Source of the DNA: Methanobacteriota archaeon
GTDB lineage: Archaea; Halobacteriota; Methanomicrobia; Methanomicrobiales; Methanoculleaceae
NCBI GenBank assembly: GCA_016841955.1
Contig: JAENYE010000002.1
Span: 189,344-253,343 of the forward strand
Length of the DNA: 64,000 nucleotides
Direction: 5' to 3'
The position numbers and the translations under genes were made by a program. The first letter of the stretch is position 1; each line of letters begins with the position of its first letter. Positions 9,597-55,500 of this stretch are shown piece by piece. The notes under the pieces are model-generated. The model was given only the letters and a program-made list of their open reading frames with translations, did not search any database and was not told where the DNA came from.

Positions 9597-10010
9597 GCAA
9601 CCACCCGGGAGAAGGCGCCGGACCCCGACGAGTCGTCGAAACGGTTCCTGATCGGGAGACGTCCGTAGCCGGGAGGCAGGAACATGCAGAGAGCCGTAAA
9701 ATTGTCGTTCGAACACTTCAGCGGAACAGAGTCCGACTGGTTACAAATCCTTTCCGCTGTATGCCGGATGAGACGAATACAGCGGCTGTACAAAACGATC
9801 CGTCATGGTTGTCCACCACACCGGAGTGTATGCATTCCGGGGATATAAATAAACCTGGAACTGCCCGCCGGCGCTGAACCGTCGTCCGGGTTCTGACGTT
9901 AGTGTTCAGCCGGCACCTCCGGCCGTATGTCGAACGGAAGGTCGTCTGGTGGAGGCGTGATGACCTCTTCCTTCAGGCATATCCTCTTCTAAAGAGTTGT
10001 ACGGAAGGAA
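9597..10010. other. Intergenic region with long leader of the acetolactate synthase gene
   Basis: 414 bp between the ilvB start and the stop of the leftward exporter gene. It contains the TATA box at 9843-9853 and a leader of roughly 220 nt. A 67-codon frame (minus, 9793 to 9590) ends in a TGA that overlaps the ilvB ATG; it shows no run of Ile, Leu or Val codons and I do not call it a gene. Confidence 0.45.
9841..9856 (-). promoter_or_regulatory. TATA box, probable ilvB promoter
   Basis: Minus-strand GGTTTATTTATATCC is a good archaeal TATA element. Predicted start of transcription is near 9815-9820, about 220 nt before the ilvB ATG. Confidence 0.5.
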
Positions 10011-11450
10011 TCAATCCTCAGCCTCCCCCACCGCACCCCCCTCCCGGATCCGCATCGTCAACGCGATCATCCCGATGATGAACAGGACTCCGACCAGGAA
10101 CGCGTGGTCGAACCCGATCTCCAGCTCGGCGATCGGGTGGAGAAAGTGGATTGCCCCGGTGGTCCCTGCCGGCTCGTCGCCCCGGATCCAGCGGTCGAAG
10201 ATCGTCTCGAAGACGACGATGCCTATCATGGAGGCAAGGTACCGGGAGAAGTACCAGAACGACGACGCGGCTCCCTGCAGTTCCCCCGGCGTCGAGGTGA
10301 GGATGAGCCGGAGGTTCGGCGGCGCAAAGAGCCCCATCGAGATGCCCCGGAAGACGAGGGCGAGGATGATGACGGATAGGGCAATCGTGTCGTCAAAGAT
10401 GACGAAGACGGAGACGAAGATGAAGAGGAATACCCCCGCAAGGGTGCAGAGCCGGCGCGAGCCGATATAGTCGGAGAGCGTGCCGGAGACCGGACCGGTG
10501 ATCACGATGAGAAGCGAAGGGGCGAGGAGCAGAAGCCCGGTAAAGCCCGTGGAATACCCTTTGACCAGCTCGAGGTACATCGGGACGAGGTAGGTCATCC
10601 CCGACAGCACGAGCCGGTTGAGCATCGCGGCGGCGATCCCGATCGAGAACGCCCGGTTCTTCAGGAGCCCGAACTGAAGCAGGGGCACCGGCGTGCGCCG
10701 TTCCCGGGCGATGAAGATCCCGGAGAATACAAACGAGAGGGCGAGCGCGGAGAGGACCGGAAGGGACGTCCAGCCATGCCCCTCCCCAAACGAGAGCGCG
10801 GCGGTGAAGAGCCCCGCAGCGAGGACGACCAGCAGTGCTCCCGCGAGATCGAACTCCCCCCGCGTCATACGCCGGCCGGCATCCCGGGGGACGAAGAGAT
10901 ACGCGATGACGACGGCACAGATCCCCACCGGCACGTTGAGGTAAAAGATCCACTCCCATGAAAGGAAGTGGAGGATGATACCGCCGAGGCCGAACCCGGC
11001 GGCAAGACCGAGGGCGTTTGCCGCGGAGAGGTAGCCGAGCGCCCTCCCCCTGACCTGCTCCGGGAGCGAGACCGAGAGAAGCGCCGGGCCCGTTGCCGTG
11101 ATCATCGCGCCGCCGATCCCCTGCAGGGCACGGAACAGGATGAGCCAGAGAAGGCTTGGCGACGCACCGCAGAAGAACGAGCTCGCGGTGAAAAGGGCAA
11201 ACCCCGCAACGAAGATGTTCTTCTTCCCCATCACGTCCCCGAGGCGCCCGAAGGGGATCAGGAACCCGGTGACGGCGAGCAGGTAGGTTATCAGGACCCA
11301 GGAAGCCTCGCTGGTCCCCACGTCGAAATGCCGGGAGATCGAGGTGAGGGAGAGGATGACGATGCTTGAGTCCGTGGCCCCCATAAAGGAGCCGAGTACG
11401 ACGGCAGCAATGATGAGGCCTCGCGCGGTCGTTTCGCGTAACCTGCTCAC
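10011..11450 (-). CDS. MFS transporter, DHA2 (14-helix EmrB/QacA) family
   Basis: About 479 residues from the GTG at 11450, or 502 from a TTG at 11519; neither has a strong ribosome site, and I prefer 11450 because the first helix then begins a few residues in. Family motifs: DSSIVILSLTSISRHF (motif D1 region of helix 1), GRLGDVMGKKN (motif A, loop 2-3), RALQGIGGA (motif B), and a 14-helix layout. Such proteins expel drugs, dyes or metabolites by proton antiport. It ends about 414 bp before the ilvB start on the same strand. Substrate cannot be predicted. Confidence 0.88.
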   Translation of the reverse strand: MSRLRETTARGLIIAAVVLGSFMGATDSSIVILSLTSISRHFDVGTSEASWVLITYLLAVTGFLIPFGRLGDVMGKKNIFVAGFALFTASSFFCGASPSLLWLILFRALQGIGGAMITATGPALLSVSLPEQVRGRALGYLSAANALGLAAGFGLGGIILHFLSWEWIFYLNVPVGICAVVIAYLFVPRDAGRRMTRGEFDLAGALLVVLAAGLFTAALSFGEGHGWTSLPVLSALALSFVFSGIFIARERRTPVPLLQFGLLKNRAFSIGIAAAMLNRLVLSGMTYLVPMYLELVKGYSTGFTGLLLLAPSLLIVITGPVSGTLSDYIGSRRLCTLAGVFLFIFVSVFVIFDDTIALSVIILALVFRGISMGLFAPPNLRLILTSTPGELQGAASSFWYFSRYLASMIGIVVFETIFDRWIRGDEPAGTTGAIHFLHPIAELEIGFDHAFLVGVLFIIGMIALTMRIREGGAVGEAED

Positions 11451-17268: not shown

Positions 17269-17461
17269 CGGCAGTCGCAACTCGCACCTGCGGTGCTCAT
17301 GCTCCGGACGTCCCGGCAGTCGCAACTTGCACCTGCGGTGCTCATGCTCCGGACGTCCCGGCAGTCGCAACTTGCACCTGCGGTGCTCATGCTCCGGACG
17401 TCCCGGCAGTCGCAACTCGAAGACCTTCGGTCTTCTCAAACTCCTGCCGTCCCGGCAGTCG
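17269..17461 (-). repeat. Tandem 45-bp repeats of the dispersed hairpin family
   Basis: Three nearly identical 45-bp units (17269-17313, 17314-17358, 17359-17403), a 49-bp fourth unit with a different stem (17404-17452), and the first 9 bases of a fifth. Each unit contains a hairpin: GCACC-TGC-GGTGC in units 1-3, GAAGACC-TTC-GGTCTTC in unit 4, inside conserved flanks. Units differ by single bases. There are no unique spacers, so this is not CRISPR. The fourth and fifth units reach into the 3' end of the gene at 17436-18191 and supply its stop codon. Confidence 0.9.
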
Positions 17462-18191
17462 TTTCATACACGACCCTCTCCGCCAGCGCGATCTCTCGCG
17501 GAGCAAAGACGATCAGCGCCCGGGGGTCCTCTTCGATGCGGGTTGCCGTCCGGTTTTGGTTCTGCGGCTCGCCGCTCATGTCGATGACCACCCTCTCCGG
17601 GATCGGGTAGATCTCGACGGTGTGCCAGACTTCCGGGGTGGCAAAGGAGATCTCCTGTAAGGGGCGGAGCGTGCCGTTCTCGACAGCATAGATGTTCCCG
17701 TAGGTGTCGTCGTAGGTCCGGTTCTGCTCGTGGTAAAAGACCTTCAGGTTCATCCCCCTCTCGCCGTAGGAGATCTCGTTAAACGGGATGCTGTCGACGG
17801 CGGCGAGGACTTCAAGCGGGTGTGCACTGGCAGGCCGGTAATCGAGCCGCTGGGACGAGAGATAGGCGCTCCCGTTTCTGAGGACGAAGGCGGAGTGGAC
17901 CCAGGGCTCTCCTTCCATATCGGCGAAGAAGTGAAACCGTATCACGGTAAACGATCCGTTTGAATCGAAACTCATATCGAGCCTCGCCCCCTTCGCCGTC
18001 CGGTTATCGAACGGAATCTCGCTCTCCATCGCCTCCCAGATCTCGATGAGCGGGGGGTTGTACCGCTCCGTCGGGAGGACGGGGACGGTCTCGTAGTCGA
18101 TCGTCTCGTAGCCGGGCGGGACGTAAGAGGCACGCCAGAGAACGAACGCCACCACGACAACGATGCCGAGCGCAAGCCACCGTGTCCTCAT
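17436..18191 (-). CDS. Membrane-anchored extracytoplasmic protein, unknown function
   Basis: 251 residues. A single hydrophobic N-terminal segment (residues 5-20, WLALGIVVVVAFVLWRASYV) acts as signal anchor; the rest is a beta-rich soluble domain with repeated PSI-blast-invisible motifs (RLDMSFDSNGSFTVIRFHFF, VWHTVEIYPIPERVVIDMSG). I do not recognise the family. It starts with an ATGA overlap on the stop of the upstream PQQ-like gene, so the two are translationally coupled. The last five codons and the stop lie in the hairpin repeat array, which may have replaced the original end. Confidence 0.72.
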   Translation of the reverse strand: MRTRWLALGIVVVVAFVLWRASYVPPGYETIDYETVPVLPTERYNPPLIEIWEAMESEIPFDNRTAKGARLDMSFDSNGSFTVIRFHFFADMEGEPWVHSAFVLRNGSAYLSSQRLDYRPASAHPLEVLAAVDSIPFNEISYGERGMNLKVFYHEQNRTYDDTYGNIYAVENGTLRPLQEISFATPEVWHTVEIYPIPERVVIDMSGEPQNQNRTATRIEEDPRALIVFAPREIALAERVVYETTAGTAGV

Positions 18192-23033: not shown

Positions 23034-23102
23034 TCACGCGAAGGCGCGAAGAACGCGAAGGAAACTGTCAACACTCATCTGGACTTCGCGGCTTCGCGTG
23101 AG
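23034..23102. repeat. CACGCGAAG-type inverted repeat
   Basis: TCACGCGAAG near 23034 is mirrored by CTTCGCGTGA at 23092-23101, with internal copies of CGCGAAG. The same elements recur at 55282-55330 and 55417-55500, always between genes. It could form a long imperfect hairpin after the Hsp20 gene. Confidence 0.75.
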
Positions 23103-23181
23103 GCAACATCACCGACCACTATTGGTAACCGGATGTTATCCGGAGGTTGTGGAAAGCATTTTAACAGGGCCGGACAGCCCG

Positions 23182-35549: not shown

Positions 35550-35585
35550 GGACCTCGAAACCCTTCAAGATGCTCATAACCCCCG

Positions 35586-35606
35586 TTCCGGCAGGGACTT
35601 GAGCAC
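35586..35606 (+). repeat. Partial copy of the dispersed hairpin repeat
   Basis: CCGGCAGGGACTTGAGCACC is the left flank and left stem of the repeat family described at 41.5-42 kb, with no right stem. It lies between the dehydrogenase stop and the next gene. Confidence 0.55.
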
Positions 35607-35656
35607 CGCCGATAACTCAATAAGGGTAGAGTAACTTCCTTCTTCAGAGGGATCGC

Positions 35657-36395: not shown

Positions 36396-36466
36396 ACGCC
36401 CTCATAAACCTGACCCGGCAGGGATGGTTGAGAAGAGGACCAGTCGCGGACAGGGGGAAAAAACCG

Positions 36467-36751
36467 TTACCGGGCATTGTATCCGGCAGATTCCCCCTCA
36501 CGGCATTCCAGGTCTTCGTAGGTTGCCACCCTGTACCCCGCATACCCGCCCCCGAGGTTTATCTGGAGCAGGACGAAGATCCTGAGGTCGGGATGCACCC
36601 AGATCGCGACATCGGCATCATCCTGCTCCGGTATGAAGTTCAACGACCGGAGTACTTCCCTGATATCGGCATAGTCGGGCGTCGACTGGATCATCTCCTC
36701 GATCTCCACCATCACAGCCCGCTGCTGCAGGGTCTCGATCTCTCCAAGCAT
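36467..36751 (-). CDS. Small hypothetical protein, paralogue of the preceding gene
   Basis: 94 residues from ATG 36751, which has GGGGGTGG 1-8 nt before; the longer frame to 36952 lacks matching signals. Sequence: EEMIQSTPDYADIREVLRSL, NFIPEQDDADVAIW, RIFVLLQIN, and a C-terminus EDLECREGESAGYNAR. Aligns by eye with the protein at 36111-36395 (shared positions include S, Y, IR, L, F, D, W, FV). Function unknown. It is divergent from the FHA/kinase/channel operon, whose first gene starts about 210 bp away. Confidence 0.68.
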   Translation of the reverse strand: MLGEIETLQQRAVMVEIEEMIQSTPDYADIREVLRSLNFIPEQDDADVAIWVHPDLRIFVLLQINLGGGYAGYRVATYEDLECREGESAGYNAR

Positions 36752-40788: not shown

Positions 40789-41451
40789 ATGCTCACCATC
40801 ACCGAAGTCTACAACAACGTCCCCTGCCGGGAGGGGCTCACGGCGGACTGGGGGTTCTCCTGCCTGCTTCATGAGGCGGGGCTGCTCTTTGACACCGGAG
40901 AACGCGGCGATGTCCTTCTCGCAAACATGCAGGCGCTCGGCATCGATCCTGCAGGTATCCGGTACCTCGTGTTATCCCACGACCACCACGACCATATCGG
41001 CGGCCTCGCGGCGGTCCTGGCCCGAAATCCTTCGATGGAAGTCTTCGTCCACGACGCCTTCTCCACGCGGACGCTCGGGCTGATCCGGGAGTACACCGAA
41101 CCCCGGATCATCGGCGAGTGGACGGAGATCGCGGACGGCATCGCCGTGACCGGCCCCCTCGGGACCGATATCCGGGAGCAGTCGCTCGCGGTCACCGTGC
41201 CGGACGGCTACCTGGTCGTCACCGGGTGCGCGCACCCCCACATCGGCCGGATCATCGACCGTGTCTCGCAGGAAGGGTCTGTTTGGGGAGTGCTCGGCGG
41301 GCTGCACACCGTCACCGGCGAGGATATCGACGCCCTTGCCGGGGTGGCGTACCTTTCGGCATCGCACTGCACCGATAAGATCGCAGAACTGCAGGAGCGG
41401 TATCCGGAGTCTTTCCGCCCAGGAGGTGTCGGGAAGGTGCACCGGGTCTGA
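40789..41451 (+). CDS. MBL-fold metallo-hydrolase of the COG1237 type
   Basis: 220 residues. LLFDTGERGDVLLANMQALG then SHDHHDHIGGL (zinc motif HxHxDH), VTGCAHPHIGRIID and LGGLHTVT are the conserved marks of the COG1237 group, one member of which (MJ0888-like) makes a pterin precursor of methanopterin; others have different roles, so the reaction is inferred at best. Length is shorter than the usual 250-280. ATG 40789 after ATTTTCATG-like context; the ribosome site is weak. Followed by the repeat field. Confidence 0.82.
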   Translation: MLTITEVYNNVPCREGLTADWGFSCLLHEAGLLFDTGERGDVLLANMQALGIDPAGIRYLVLSHDHHDHIGGLAAVLARNPSMEVFVHDAFSTRTLGLIREYTEPRIIGEWTEIADGIAVTGPLGTDIREQSLAVTVPDGYLVVTGCAHPHIGRIIDRVSQEGSVWGVLGGLHTVTGEDIDALAGVAYLSASHCTDKIAELQERYPESFRPGGVGKVHRV

Positions 41452-41514
41452 AAAAGGGGCGCGTTGGAACCCTGTTCGGGTCTTCGGGCTCGTAATTGAG
41501 GGGGCTGTGACTGC

Positions 41515-41548
41515 CCGGAGTTCGAGCACCGGAGGTGCGAGGTGCGAC
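41515..41548 (+). repeat. Dispersed hairpin repeat, copy with GCACC/GGTGC stem
   Basis: CCGGAGTTCGA-GCACC-GGA-GGTGC-GAGGTGCGA. The stem bases are 41526-41530 and 41534-41538. Left flank CCGGAG-TTCGA and right flank GAGGTGCGA are shared with the other copies. Confidence 0.85.
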
Positions 41549-41559
41549 GGTTCATAGAA

Positions 41560-41597
41560 CCGGAACACGAGAAGCCGTTAGGCTTCGAGGTGCGATG
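41560..41597 (+). repeat. Dispersed hairpin repeat, copy with GAAGCC/GGCTTC stem
   Basis: CCGGAACACGA-GAAGCC-GTTA-GGCTTC-GAGGTGCGA. Stem at 41571-41576 and 41581-41586; same flanks as the preceding copy but an unrelated, still paired stem. Confidence 0.85.
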
Positions 41598-41606
41598 GAC
41601 GGAACG

Positions 41607-41644
41607 CCCGGAGCACGAGAAGGCTGAAGGCCTTCGTTGTGCGG
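41607..41644 (+). repeat. Dispersed hairpin repeat, copy with GAAGGC/GCCTTC stem
   Basis: CCGGAGCACGA-GAAGGC, loop TGAAG, GCCTTC-GTTGTGCGG. Stem at 41619-41624 and 41630-41635. Confidence 0.8.
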
Positions 41645-41713
41645 CAAGCAGAGTGATCAAAGCAAGGAAAATATCACGGTGCAGTGGACCGTGGTAGCAT
41701 CGCCACGCACTGC

Positions 41714-41733
41714 CCCCGCCCCAAGGGGCGGGG
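41714..41733. other. Perfect 9-bp GC hairpin
   Basis: CCCCGCCCC-AA-GGGGCGGGG. A 2-base loop makes an RNA hairpin with this exact loop strained, so it may instead act as a DNA cruciform or reflect a repeat end. Confidence 0.75.
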
Positions 41734-41750
41734 AGCGACTGCCGGAACGG

Positions 41751-41781
41751 CAGGAGTTTGAGAAGACCAGAGGTCTTCGAG
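41751..41781 (+). repeat. Dispersed hairpin repeat, copy with GAAGACC/GGTCTTC stem
   Basis: CAGGAGTTTGA-GAAGACC-AGA-GGTCTTC-GAGT. Stem at 41762-41768 and 41772-41778, the same stem as the fourth unit of the 17.4 kb array, in the opposite orientation there. Confidence 0.85.
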
Positions 41782-41817
41782 TGGGGGTTATGGGAGTCCC
41801 ATTATAAGGGAGAGACA

Positions 41818-41847
41818 GGGGAGGGGGGGGAATACTCCCCCCTCCCC
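41818..41847. terminator. 11-bp G/C-rich perfect hairpin
   Basis: GGGGAGGGGGG at 41818-41828 pairs with CCCCCCTCCCC at 41837-41847, loop of 8. Strong enough to stop or pause transcription; the purine strand could also form a G-quadruplex. No U-run follows. Confidence 0.55.
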
Positions 41848-41966
41848 GTCAGCCCCTCCCCCAGGGGCGATATCCCCTCGGAATTCGCGTCTGGGACGCA
41901 ATCCAAAGTCACGCGTGAGCACCGCAGGCGAGAATCGCAACGGTTCGTGAGTGCGACTGGCGTCCC

Positions 41967-41988
41967 GGCAGGAGCTTGAGCACCGAAG
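41967..41988 (+). repeat. Partial copy of the dispersed hairpin repeat
   Basis: GGCAGGAGCTTGA-GCACC-GAAG, without a matching right stem, preceded by GCGACTGGCGTCCC as between units of the 17.3 kb array. Confidence 0.6.
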
Positions 41989-42022
41989 AACGACGTTCCG
42001 ACAGGAACGACGCTCCGCAGGA

Positions 42023-42057
42023 GCGGAGTTCGAGCACCGTTAGGTGCGAAGGTGCGA
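42023..42057 (+). repeat. Dispersed hairpin repeat, copy with GCACC/GGTGC stem
   Basis: GCGGAGTTCGA-GCACC-GTTA-GGTGC-GAAGGTGCGA; the loop matches that of the copy at 41560 while the stem matches that at 41515. Confidence 0.8.
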
Positions 42058-42105: not shown

Positions 42106-42966
42106 TTACTCTTCCTTCCAATTCTTTCCGGCAAACCGCCCCTTCACCTCGAGTCCGTCAGCAAACCAGACGGTGCGCTGGGGGAAGGGTATCTCGATGC
42201 CGTTCTCTTCGAGCGCCTGCTTGATCTTCCAGAGAAGGTCCGTCCGGACATCCCACCAGTTCCGTGCCGGCGCCCATATGTAGACGGTCAGGTTGACGCT
42301 GTTGTCACCGAGGTTATCGACGAAGACGGACGGTGCCGGGCTCTTCAGCGCGAAGGGATGGACCGCGATGACCTCCTTCGCGATCCGGATCGCCTCGTTC
42401 GCATCGTCCTGGTACCGGATGCCGATCTGGTACTCGAACCTCCGGGCTGCATTATGGACGTAGTTGGTGATGTTCGAGGTGAATACCGTCTCGTTCGGGA
42501 TCCTGACATAGATCCCGTCATACGTCTTGACGACGGTCGAGAGGACGCGGATATCCTCGACGCTGCCGCTGACGTCCCCGACGTTGATGTTGTCGCCGAT
42601 CTTGATCGGGTGCTCGAACATGAGGAAGAGGCCGGAGACCAGGTTGGAGACGACGCTCTGGCTCGCAAAACCGATGACGAGACCGGCGATCCCTCCGGCA
42701 ACCAGGAGGCCGGAGAGGTCGAATTCGAGCTGCGGGAGAGCGACGACGAACGCCCAGATTATGATGCCGTAATAGACCAGTTTCGCGAGCAGCTCGCGCT
42801 CGTTCTTGGGCAGCCGCTCCGTGAGGGCCCGTCGGACGTTTGTCGAGACGACCCGCGCGACTGCAACGCCGACCACGAGGATGACGACGAAATACATGAG
42901 GTTACCGGCGGTGATGTCACCGACGCCTATGGGGGTCTCCAGGATCTGGGTCACGTTGAACGTCAC
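42106..42966 (-). CDS. Small-conductance mechanosensitive channel (MscS family)
   Basis: 286 residues. Three helices (about 17-40, 60-85, 90-120), the last one the pore helix with Gly/Ala pattern LSGLLVAGGIAGLVIGFAS, followed by the MscS beta domain signature (FLMFEHPIKIGDNINVGDVS) and an alpha/beta cytoplasmic vestibule. It opens under membrane tension to release solutes after osmotic downshock. Start GTG 42966 overlaps the upstream DUF432 stop (GTGA). That DUF432-MscS pairing suggests the two proteins act together. Confidence 0.9.
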   Translation of the reverse strand: MTFNVTQILETPIGVGDITAGNLMYFVVILVVGVAVARVVSTNVRRALTERLPKNERELLAKLVYYGIIIWAFVVALPQLEFDLSGLLVAGGIAGLVIGFASQSVVSNLVSGLFLMFEHPIKIGDNINVGDVSGSVEDIRVLSTVVKTYDGIYVRIPNETVFTSNITNYVHNAARRFEYQIGIRYQDDANEAIRIAKEVIAVHPFALKSPAPSVFVDNLGDNSVNLTVYIWAPARNWWDVRTDLLWKIKQALEENGIEIPFPQRTVWFADGLEVKGRFAGKNWKEE

Positions 42967-43667
42967 GAGAATCCCCACTCCATCAGGTATCCCCGGTCGA
43001 TCACCGGGATCTTGCGCGCCACACACAGCTCGACGGACTTTACCATGCCGGGCCGGAGCGGGGCGTCGATGAAGTCCGTCTCCGCGAGGTTCGGGCTGAT
43101 GATCTTCATCGTGGCGGCGGTCGCCACGATATCGCCGTAATAAATCTTCATATCGGTGCTGTCAAAGACGACGCACGAGATCTCCACCCACCCGTGGGAC
43201 GTGTTATGGATGGAGAGTTCCATCACCCCCTCGCGGAGAGATTCGGGCGGAGGAACCTCAGTGTATATCTCGCTATGGTACCAGCGGGCGATGACACCAT
43301 TGGTCGGCGTTCCGTAGAGCGTATACTTCTGGGAGCCGAGACCAAAGATATCGAGCACCTCGATGTCTCTTGCCGCCTCCAGGAAGACGCCGATCTCGAC
43401 CGGAAACTTCAGGTAGACCGTCTGGGTGGCCCCGGGCTCAATGACCATGGGAGAGAACTCTATCTGGAGGAAATCCGTGATATCTTTCGGGAGGTTGACC
43501 GGTTCTACCGGGTTGATGACGATCTCGCCCGTCTTTGAGACCAGGATCCGCTCGAACGTCTGCCCTTCGCACCTCCGCCGGTAGGTCAGAAGACCGCCGT
43601 TTCGTTCGGCTTCGACCAGGATGTCGCCGTCTTCACGGTGGAAAGTGCCTTTGTAACGCCCGAACAT
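42963..43667 (-). CDS. DUF432 domain protein
   Basis: 234 residues. The DUF432 family is archaeal, of unknown function. The protein is beta-rich without a signal peptide (FGRYKGTFHREDGDILVEAE, IVINPVEPVNLPKDITDF, VYLKFPVEIGVFLEAARDIE). It precedes the MscS gene with a 4-base overlap, so it is co-translated with a tension-gated channel and may regulate it. A minus-strand TATA (AAGTTAATATTTG, 43690-43702) about 28 nt upstream implies a leaderless message. Confidence 0.87.
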   Translation of the reverse strand: MFGRYKGTFHREDGDILVEAERNGGLLTYRRRCEGQTFERILVSKTGEIVINPVEPVNLPKDITDFLQIEFSPMVIEPGATQTVYLKFPVEIGVFLEAARDIEVLDIFGLGSQKYTLYGTPTNGVIARWYHSEIYTEVPPPESLREGVMELSIHNTSHGWVEISCVVFDSTDMKIYYGDIVATAATMKIISPNLAETDFIDAPLRPGMVKSVELCVARKIPVIDRGYLMEWGFS

Positions 43668-55229: not shown

Positions 55230-55248
55230 CGCTTCGGGCTTCGCGTTT

Positions 55249-55272
55249 CGCACCTGCGGTGCTCAAGCTCCC
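55249..55272 (-). repeat. Dispersed hairpin repeat, GCACC/GGTGC stem, reverse orientation
   Basis: CGCACC-TGC-GGTGCTCAAGCTCC; read on the minus strand GGAGCTTGA-GCACC-GCA-GGTGC-G, as in the 17.3 kb array. Confidence 0.75.
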
Positions 55273-55281
55273 TCCGGTCGC

Positions 55282-55330
55282 ACTTCGCGTGAGCTACTTG
55301 CTGGGGATAACAGTACAGCCTCACGCGAAG
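55282..55330. repeat. CACGCGAAG-type inverted repeat
   Basis: CTTCGCGTGAG at 55283 and CTCACGCGAAG at 55320-55330 are exact inverted copies, about 26 bases apart, followed by AACGCGAAGCCGCGAAG. Confidence 0.75.
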
Positions 55331-55364
55331 AACGCGAAGCCGCGAAGGACGATGGTTCGTAGAG

Positions 55365-55394
55365 CCGGAGTTCGAGCACCGTCAGGTGCGAAGG
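55365..55394 (+). repeat. Dispersed hairpin repeat, GCACC/GGTGC stem
   Basis: CCGGAGTTCGA-GCACC-GTCA-GGTGC-GAAGG, preceded by TTCGTAGAG. Forward orientation. Confidence 0.75.
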
Positions 55395-55416
55395 GGACTG
55401 TCAAAACAACCAACCG

Positions 55417-55500
55417 TTCTTCGCGTTCTTCGCGGCTTCGCGTGCGTTGGCAGTGAAGGGAAGTGATACGGGCTCACGCGAAGAGCGCGAAGCCGGAGGA
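55417..55500. repeat. CACGCGAAG-type inverted repeat, second
   Basis: TTCTTCGCGTTCTTCGCGGC with CTTCGCGTG on the left and CTCACGCGAAGAGCGCGAAG on the right, with the AAGGGACTGTCAAAA-like phrase near 55392 that also occurs (GGAAACTGTCAACA) at 23062. Confidence 0.7.

Follow-up and report, generated by a model that had tools for sequence, protein, structure and literature searches.

A probable REP/BIME-like palindromic repeat of two hairpins in Methanoculleus

An intergenic array in a 2.43-Mb Methanoculleus genome is composed of units of approximately 45 bp, each formed by two hairpins in a row, the stems of which change in sequence and retain their pairing. The units are inserted mobile elements, for which both empty and filled sites were identified. 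We put the probability at roughly two in three that this family, which occurs in Methanoculleus and one sister genus, consists of non-coding mobile palindromic repeats of a REP/BIME-like kind. Its units are probably recognised by their folded shape. In the proposed mechanism, recognition would act on a single folded DNA strand and read its shape (a C-G closed GNA or GNYA loop, with GA on either side of each stem) and not the letters of the stem; with these letters unread, compensated steps could alter the stems gradually, or recombination among copies could swap them. The pairing may also be maintained in part by template-switch repair of imperfect palindromes.

Architecture of the unit and its arrays

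The main array lies at 41.5-42.05 kb of the window (the whole 64,000-nucleotide stretch of DNA that was analysed) within the 650 bp that separate two convergent genes (Table 1). The product of the upstream gene is presumably MBL-fold-like, judging from its HDHHDHIG motif, and that of the downstream gene, assessed by eye from the sequence, is taken to be MscS-like. The unit has the form GCGAY-[A]-GGAGNNYGA-[B]-GA, with stems that vary in both A and B; the fuller form of the mobile unit is GTGCGAY-[A]-GGAGNNYGA-[B]-GA. An earlier note on this DNA had assigned one hairpin, B, to each unit, which overlooked hairpin A upstream of it, where stems are exchanged too (for example, CGGTTC, CTGCCG and CGCTCC). 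All four of the B stems that it had named (GCACC/GGTGC, found at two places in the array, GAAGCC, GAAGGC and GAAGACC) were located. The right flank that it had given, GAGGTGCGA or GAAGGTGCGA, is present in three of the five copies, and the other two read GTTGTGCGG and GAGTGGGGG.

A covariance model built from 33 copies in the host genome returned 12 matches in the window at E<=3e-8 with filters off, followed by the next at E=0.05. These fall at 41.5-42.05, 17.3 and 55.25-55.4 kb, where the earlier note had placed the family; the partial copy that it had listed at 35.6 kb is a fragment. The highest-scoring copy in the window is unit 6 (63.5 bits). Unit 4 is nested within a G-rich element of the rPQS type. 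Heptamer-type repeats (TTCGCGTTCTTCGCGGCTTCGCGTGAG) at 23087-23120 and 55290-55500 constitute a third intergenic repeat class, which also hosts hairpin units.

Table 1 Features of the window that relate to the two-hairpin repeat
Feature	Coordinates	Strand	Details
Four units in tandem	17275..17464	-	45-bp period; B stems GAAGACC (one) and GCACC (three)
Unit fragment	35584..35608	+	No model match at E<=10
Empty site at the end of a gene	36458..36522	-	Insertion point 36497/36498; orthologues in G004, G006 and L085 filled
Gene upstream of the array	40789..41451	+	220 aa; orthologues served to fetch the locus in relatives
Unit 1	41485..41541	+	A degenerate; B intact at 41526-41538 (GCACC gga GGTGC)
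Unit 2	41542..41595	+	A 41548-41562 (CGGTTC ata GAACCG); B 41571-41586 (GAAGCC gtta GGCTTC)
Unit 3	41596..41636	+	A imperfect (TGGACGGAACGCCCG); B 41619-41635 (GAAGGC tgaag GCCTTC)
rPQS-type G-rich dispersed element of Methanomicrobiaceae	41670..41880	Not assigned	Approximate extent; G/C hairpin 41825-41842
Unit 4	41733..41787	+	A 41739-41753 (CTGCCG gaa CGGCAG); B 41762-41778 (GAAGACC aga GGTCTTC)
Unit 5	41951..41993	+	Truncated (CGACTGGCGTCCCGGCAGGAGCTTGAGCACCG); from the covariance model
Additional A-type hairpin	41994..42009	+	CGTTCC gaca GGAACG
Unit 6	42005..42056	+	A 42011-42025 (CGCTCC gca GGAGCG); B 42034-42047 (GCACC gtta GGTGC)
Convergent gene downstream of the array	42106..43026	-	
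Lone unit	55241..55283	-	B 55250-55262 (GCACC gca GGTGC)
Lone unit	55347..55398	+	Two G.T pairs in A (TGGTTCgtaGAGCCG); B 55376-55389 (GCACC gtca GGTGC)

Copy number and distribution

The genome-wide covariance-model search that the earlier note had proposed recovered at least 158 copies in the host genome, where scoring covered 150 candidates. Among the other Methanoculleus genomes, 23 of 34 contain at least 60 matches (60-113 each among the matches listed, from 95 scored candidates per genome), and one sister genus contains at least 86 among the matches listed. The remaining Methanoculleus genomes, mostly small or fragmented, contain 0-36, and genomes elsewhere in the order contain 0-9 each, all weak. 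Copy-poor members of the genus (0-14 matches; G002, G014, G018, G019, G021, G023, G024, G026 and G034) are likewise mostly small or fragmented. One array in G020 (L168, approximately 9830-10436; 2,478,101-bp contig) is made up of about ten near-identical units with a 46-bp period, which is a sign of recent tandem growth. Neither of the outcomes that the earlier note had set against its own claim, copies confined to the window or broken stems elsewhere, appeared in the searches of the genome and its congeners.

Pairing and covariation of the stems

The compensatory change in the hairpin stems is real, as the earlier note had proposed. In 148 strong copies from species absent from model building, 94.1% of cells are paired, two-sided changes affect 229 cells, and the covariation score is 0.450, compared with 0.137 +/- 0.008 for shuffled alignments (reached in 0 of 500 shuffles) and at most 0.068 for slid structures; this alignment was fitted to the structure and is hence biased towards pairing, a bias from which the pattern-based tests are free. 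When units were chosen by hairpin A alone, a perfect B followed in 56 of 66, compared with 71 of 7493 background places; several of the ten units without one are B hairpins mistaken for A. The proportion in a larger A-selected set is 104 of 127, and such counts are not independent events, as the copies share descent. The host genome contains 63 occurrences of one B variant (GAGCACCGNNAGGTGC) and none of its reversed control pattern; this difference, together with the excess of B pairing over background places, excludes chance.

Departures from Watson-Crick pairing were counted for hairpin A in a fixed register, in units that keep four or more of the six pairs, giving 44 G.T, 12 A.C and 53 other mismatches. 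The G.T excess derives mostly from the outermost pair (29 G.T versus 4 A.C, with 18 versus 10 at other pairs). A variant of A with a G.G mismatch (GGGCC/GGGCC or TGGCC/GGGCA) is kept in 33 of 151 units, showing that perfect pairing is not required.

The earlier note had left a choice between selection for a hairpin and exchange of stem cassettes. Stepwise compensation through mismatched intermediates and replacement of whole stems or modules both occur. Stepwise forms are represented by CGCTCC/GGAGCG in the window, CGCTCT/GGAACG in G004 and the common form CGTTCC/GGAACG. The first B hairpin of the window is of the GCACC type in the window and in L081 and of the GAAACC type in L083 and L098, between identical flanks; comparison of these orthologous sequences indicates replacement and not stepwise change.

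Stems are the same at sites shared by G004 and G006 (flank identity approximately 88-95%), and in more distant species (flanks approximately 88-90%) the arrays are largely rearranged. Over the main array and parts of both adjoining genes, G006 (L133/L134 joined, approximately 20.0-21.5 kb) diverges from G004 by only about 1-3%, compared with 5-19% in much of the surrounding region. This tract looks like the result of recent recombination; purifying selection on the array was rejected, as the low divergence extends into both adjoining genes. The stems of A and B are weakly linked (z 3.4), so that their assortment is not quite free.

Filled and empty insertion sites

An exact 45-bp unit, GTGCGACTGCCAGAATGACAGGAGCTTGAGCACCGTTAGGTGCGA, lies near the end of a gene in G004, G006 and L085, and its site is empty in twelve other genomes, the host genome included. 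Its junction reads A^G; apart from one ambiguous base the target is not duplicated, and the insertion provides the invaded gene with a stop codon. A 2-bp GA target duplication was considered and rejected as inconsistent between sites. The unit at L135 8446-8495 and in orthologues, close to the end of its gene, takes the place of the C-terminus and provides a stop codon. The array site of the window also varies between genomes, with only a short spacer in 13 of 18 relatives and arrays in 5 of 18, which carry other stems. A composite insertion of 0.5 kb is present in G004 and absent from G006.

The left end of the unit has the consensus GCG(A/G)AG(T/A)(G/A)CGAY and the right end GA(A/G)(G/T). 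Sequence to the left of first units is rich in purines and resembles the unit's own end, and GCG(A/G)AG precedes the unit. Units also occur at recurrent positions within rPQS copies, at many loci, and nesting of units inside other units was observed. The rPQS elements contain unit insertions of 38-39 bp and 91 bp with junctions of a similar kind, and matching empty copies coexist with the filled ones.

Loops, flanks and the folded strand

Hairpins A and B follow a common rule, GA-[stem, usually C-G closed]-GNA or GNYA loop-[stem]-GA. Counts were taken on the unit strand, from hairpins chosen without conditioning on loop or flank. GNA accounts for 59 of 79 triloops, and the tetraloops comprise 25 GNYA, one GNRA and 11 others. 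The closing pair is C-G in 104 of 122 hairpins, and GA flanks the stem on the 5' side in 93 and on the 3' side in 76 of the 122. Comparison hairpins from intergenic regions contain GNA in 18 of 320 and GNNA in 14 of 321 cases, and hairpins in coding sequence also lie outside the rule. On the opposite strand, only 2 of the 79 triloops are GNA.

RNA tetraloops of the GNRA class require a purine at the third position, and in DNA the d(cGNNAg) tetraloop is the GNNA counterpart of the GNA minihairpins and behaves similarly. The 25:1 ratio of GNYA to GNRA agrees better with stable minihairpins of DNA than with RNA tetraloops. GNA loops form extraordinarily stable minihairpins in DNA (Yoshizawa et al. 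1997, as cited in PMC7432603), and the C-GNA-G loop is common to most unit triloops; the minihairpins are a class of chemistry, whereas the two-hairpin unit is a repeat family. The conserved loops and GA flanks favour a hairpin of DNA over one of RNA, and the loop chemistry suggests that the folded form would be single-stranded DNA.

A bolder possibility, offered tentatively, is an archaeal mobile element defined by folded DNA shape, in which any stem would be accepted provided that it forms part of two GA-framed, C-G closed GNA or GNYA minihairpins; the mover might be a novel single-strand recombinase or the replication machinery.

Mutational upkeep and RNA function as alternatives

Pairing could instead be kept up by mutation, without true mobility, if template switching at quasi-palindromes and gene conversion perfected and mixed the stems and ordinary recombination among repeats spread them. 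Hairpins can both arise and persist through compensatory changes that template switching introduces (PMC8794818), and the rearranged arrays, the recombined tract shared by G004 and G006 and the weak linkage of A and B would suit such a process. We nevertheless find this unlikely: it leaves unexplained the clean insertion of a single unit into unique coding sequence and the conservation of loops and GA flanks, and the rarity of inverted loops on the unit strand also stands against it.

A functional RNA element in the 3' ends of transcripts (a terminator, mRNA stabiliser or processing signal), with compensation reflecting selection on RNA folding, gains from the compensatory changes, the G.T excess on the unit strand (mostly from one pair), the ability of the unit to fold well as RNA, and its location. 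With genes called by a codon-usage gene finder written for this analysis, convergent gaps hold 50 of 89 clusters, compared with 184 of all 1002 gaps (OR 5.7, p=6e-14), and divergent, promoter-containing gaps hold 6 of 89, compared with 260 of 1002 (OR 0.21); a second tally gave a similar picture. The clustering between convergent genes that the earlier note had suggested is thus present; this bias is also what insertion tolerance predicts, and by itself it is no indication of function. Against an RNA role, the two strands fold about equally well (folding energy thus does not tell them apart), the tetraloops are hardly ever GNRA, the site of the window is empty in most relatives and one copy is inserted in coding sequence. 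Orientation in tandem-gene gaps is mixed as well (three in the same and three in the opposite direction to the genes in the host genome; 21 and 8 in G020). Since the units were inserted as mobile elements, the fact that they pair is not in itself proof of selection for a function as RNA, and such a role appears rather improbable. Units probably have a mostly neutral effect on adjoining genes and now and then provide one of them with a new 3' end.

Relation to REP/BIME and other known systems

Bacterial REPs and BIMEs comprise GTAG- and CGTC-tagged families, often with more than 100 copies per genome (PMC3733652, PMC2817692). The unit resembles them as a short, high-copy palindrome, mostly intergenic, with complementary stem changes between subfamilies; like BIMEs, it forms mosaic clusters, in which conserved linkers join A and B hairpins and both orientations occur. 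It differs in being archaeal, in alternating two hairpins within each 45-bp unit, in exchanging stems more freely and in the shared loop and GA-flank rule. Neither a GTAG nor a CGTC tag was found beside the stems at either unit end, and a PF01797 search of the host genome revealed no RAYT gene flanked by repeats, as characterizes the GTAG class. The family works like REP/BIME and lacks the tag and the transposase; it is thus a variant of this kind and not a member. The earlier note knew of no named family: the wider REP/BIME class does exist, and no description of the two-hairpin family itself was found in the literature on Methanoculleus repeats or archaeal REPs, of which subscription papers were mostly outside coverage. 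An Rfam scan of the window gave no match at the gathering score.

A true REP/RAYT system with a missed or recently lost transposase would account for the copy number, the intergenic and convergent location, the mosaic arrays and the missing target duplication; CGTC REPs likewise have no dedicated transposase, and REP stems show complementary changes (PMC3733652). It is very improbable in view of the untagged ends and of the distribution of Y1/RAYT transposases, as PF01797 has no match in the host genome (G000) or in 18 of the 22 congeners searched and occurs in the copy-poor G002, G014 and G021 and in just one copy-rich genome, G010. Y1/RAYT was rejected as the mobiliser, because its presence does not follow copy number, and so were reverse transcriptase (3 of 35 genomes) and IS110 (7 of 35), neither of which tracks copy number, and TnpB, which is absent from the copy-rich G020, G025, G032 and G033. 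No mobilising enzyme was found among these four gene families, and no gene family apart from orthologues recurs beside the clusters. A reverse transcriptase domain, rare across the genus, is encoded in the host genome (G000:C9:10365-10934), and the copy-poor G021 and G024 carry 55 and 22 TnpB matches, respectively.

Hairpins are also shared with the miniature elements derived from IS200/IS605, in which the Y1 transposase TnpA recognises hairpins in single-stranded DNA (PMC6006769). Further points of likeness are the junctions, without target duplication beyond the one ambiguous base, and the landing beside sequence that resembles the element's own end; unlike in those elements, the Y1 enzyme is missing from the host genome and from most copy-rich relatives. 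In integron attC sites, which are folded single-stranded recombination sites (PMC6393395), structure is the recognised feature, as it would be here if the proposed recognition by shape is right; the comparison is an analogy, and the IntI integrase, the cassettes and the attC core sites that mark integrons have no counterpart in evidence here.

The G-quadruplex rPQS repeats of Methanomicrobiaceae (PMC8044849) occupy the same genomes and the same tail-to-tail intergenic locations and are nested with the units; the accessible part of that paper contains no description of a two-hairpin unit. The two differ in sequence and fold, and the four G-runs followed by a C-rich tract that define rPQS are absent from the units, which also occur without rPQS. 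That the hairpins are mere components within the larger rPQS element and are carried along by it, as their recurrent positions within it might suggest, is hardly tenable given the coexisting empty and filled rPQS copies, the tandem units at 17.3 kb without rPQS and the lone unit in coding sequence, a stand-alone insertion that largely refutes it.

Implications

REP-type repeats are common in the intergenic regions of bacteria, and comparable archaeal families are little described in the searchable literature. In the hundreds of copies of the Methanoculleus family, for which filled and empty sites can be identified, the sequence of the stem is naturally uncoupled from its pairing. This uncoupling allows a direct test of whether shape is the feature by which palindromic repeats are recognised, and of whether selection or template-switch mutation is the source of compensation. 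It also carries a caution, in that covariation, the usual hallmark of structured RNA, can arise from a mobile DNA hairpin.
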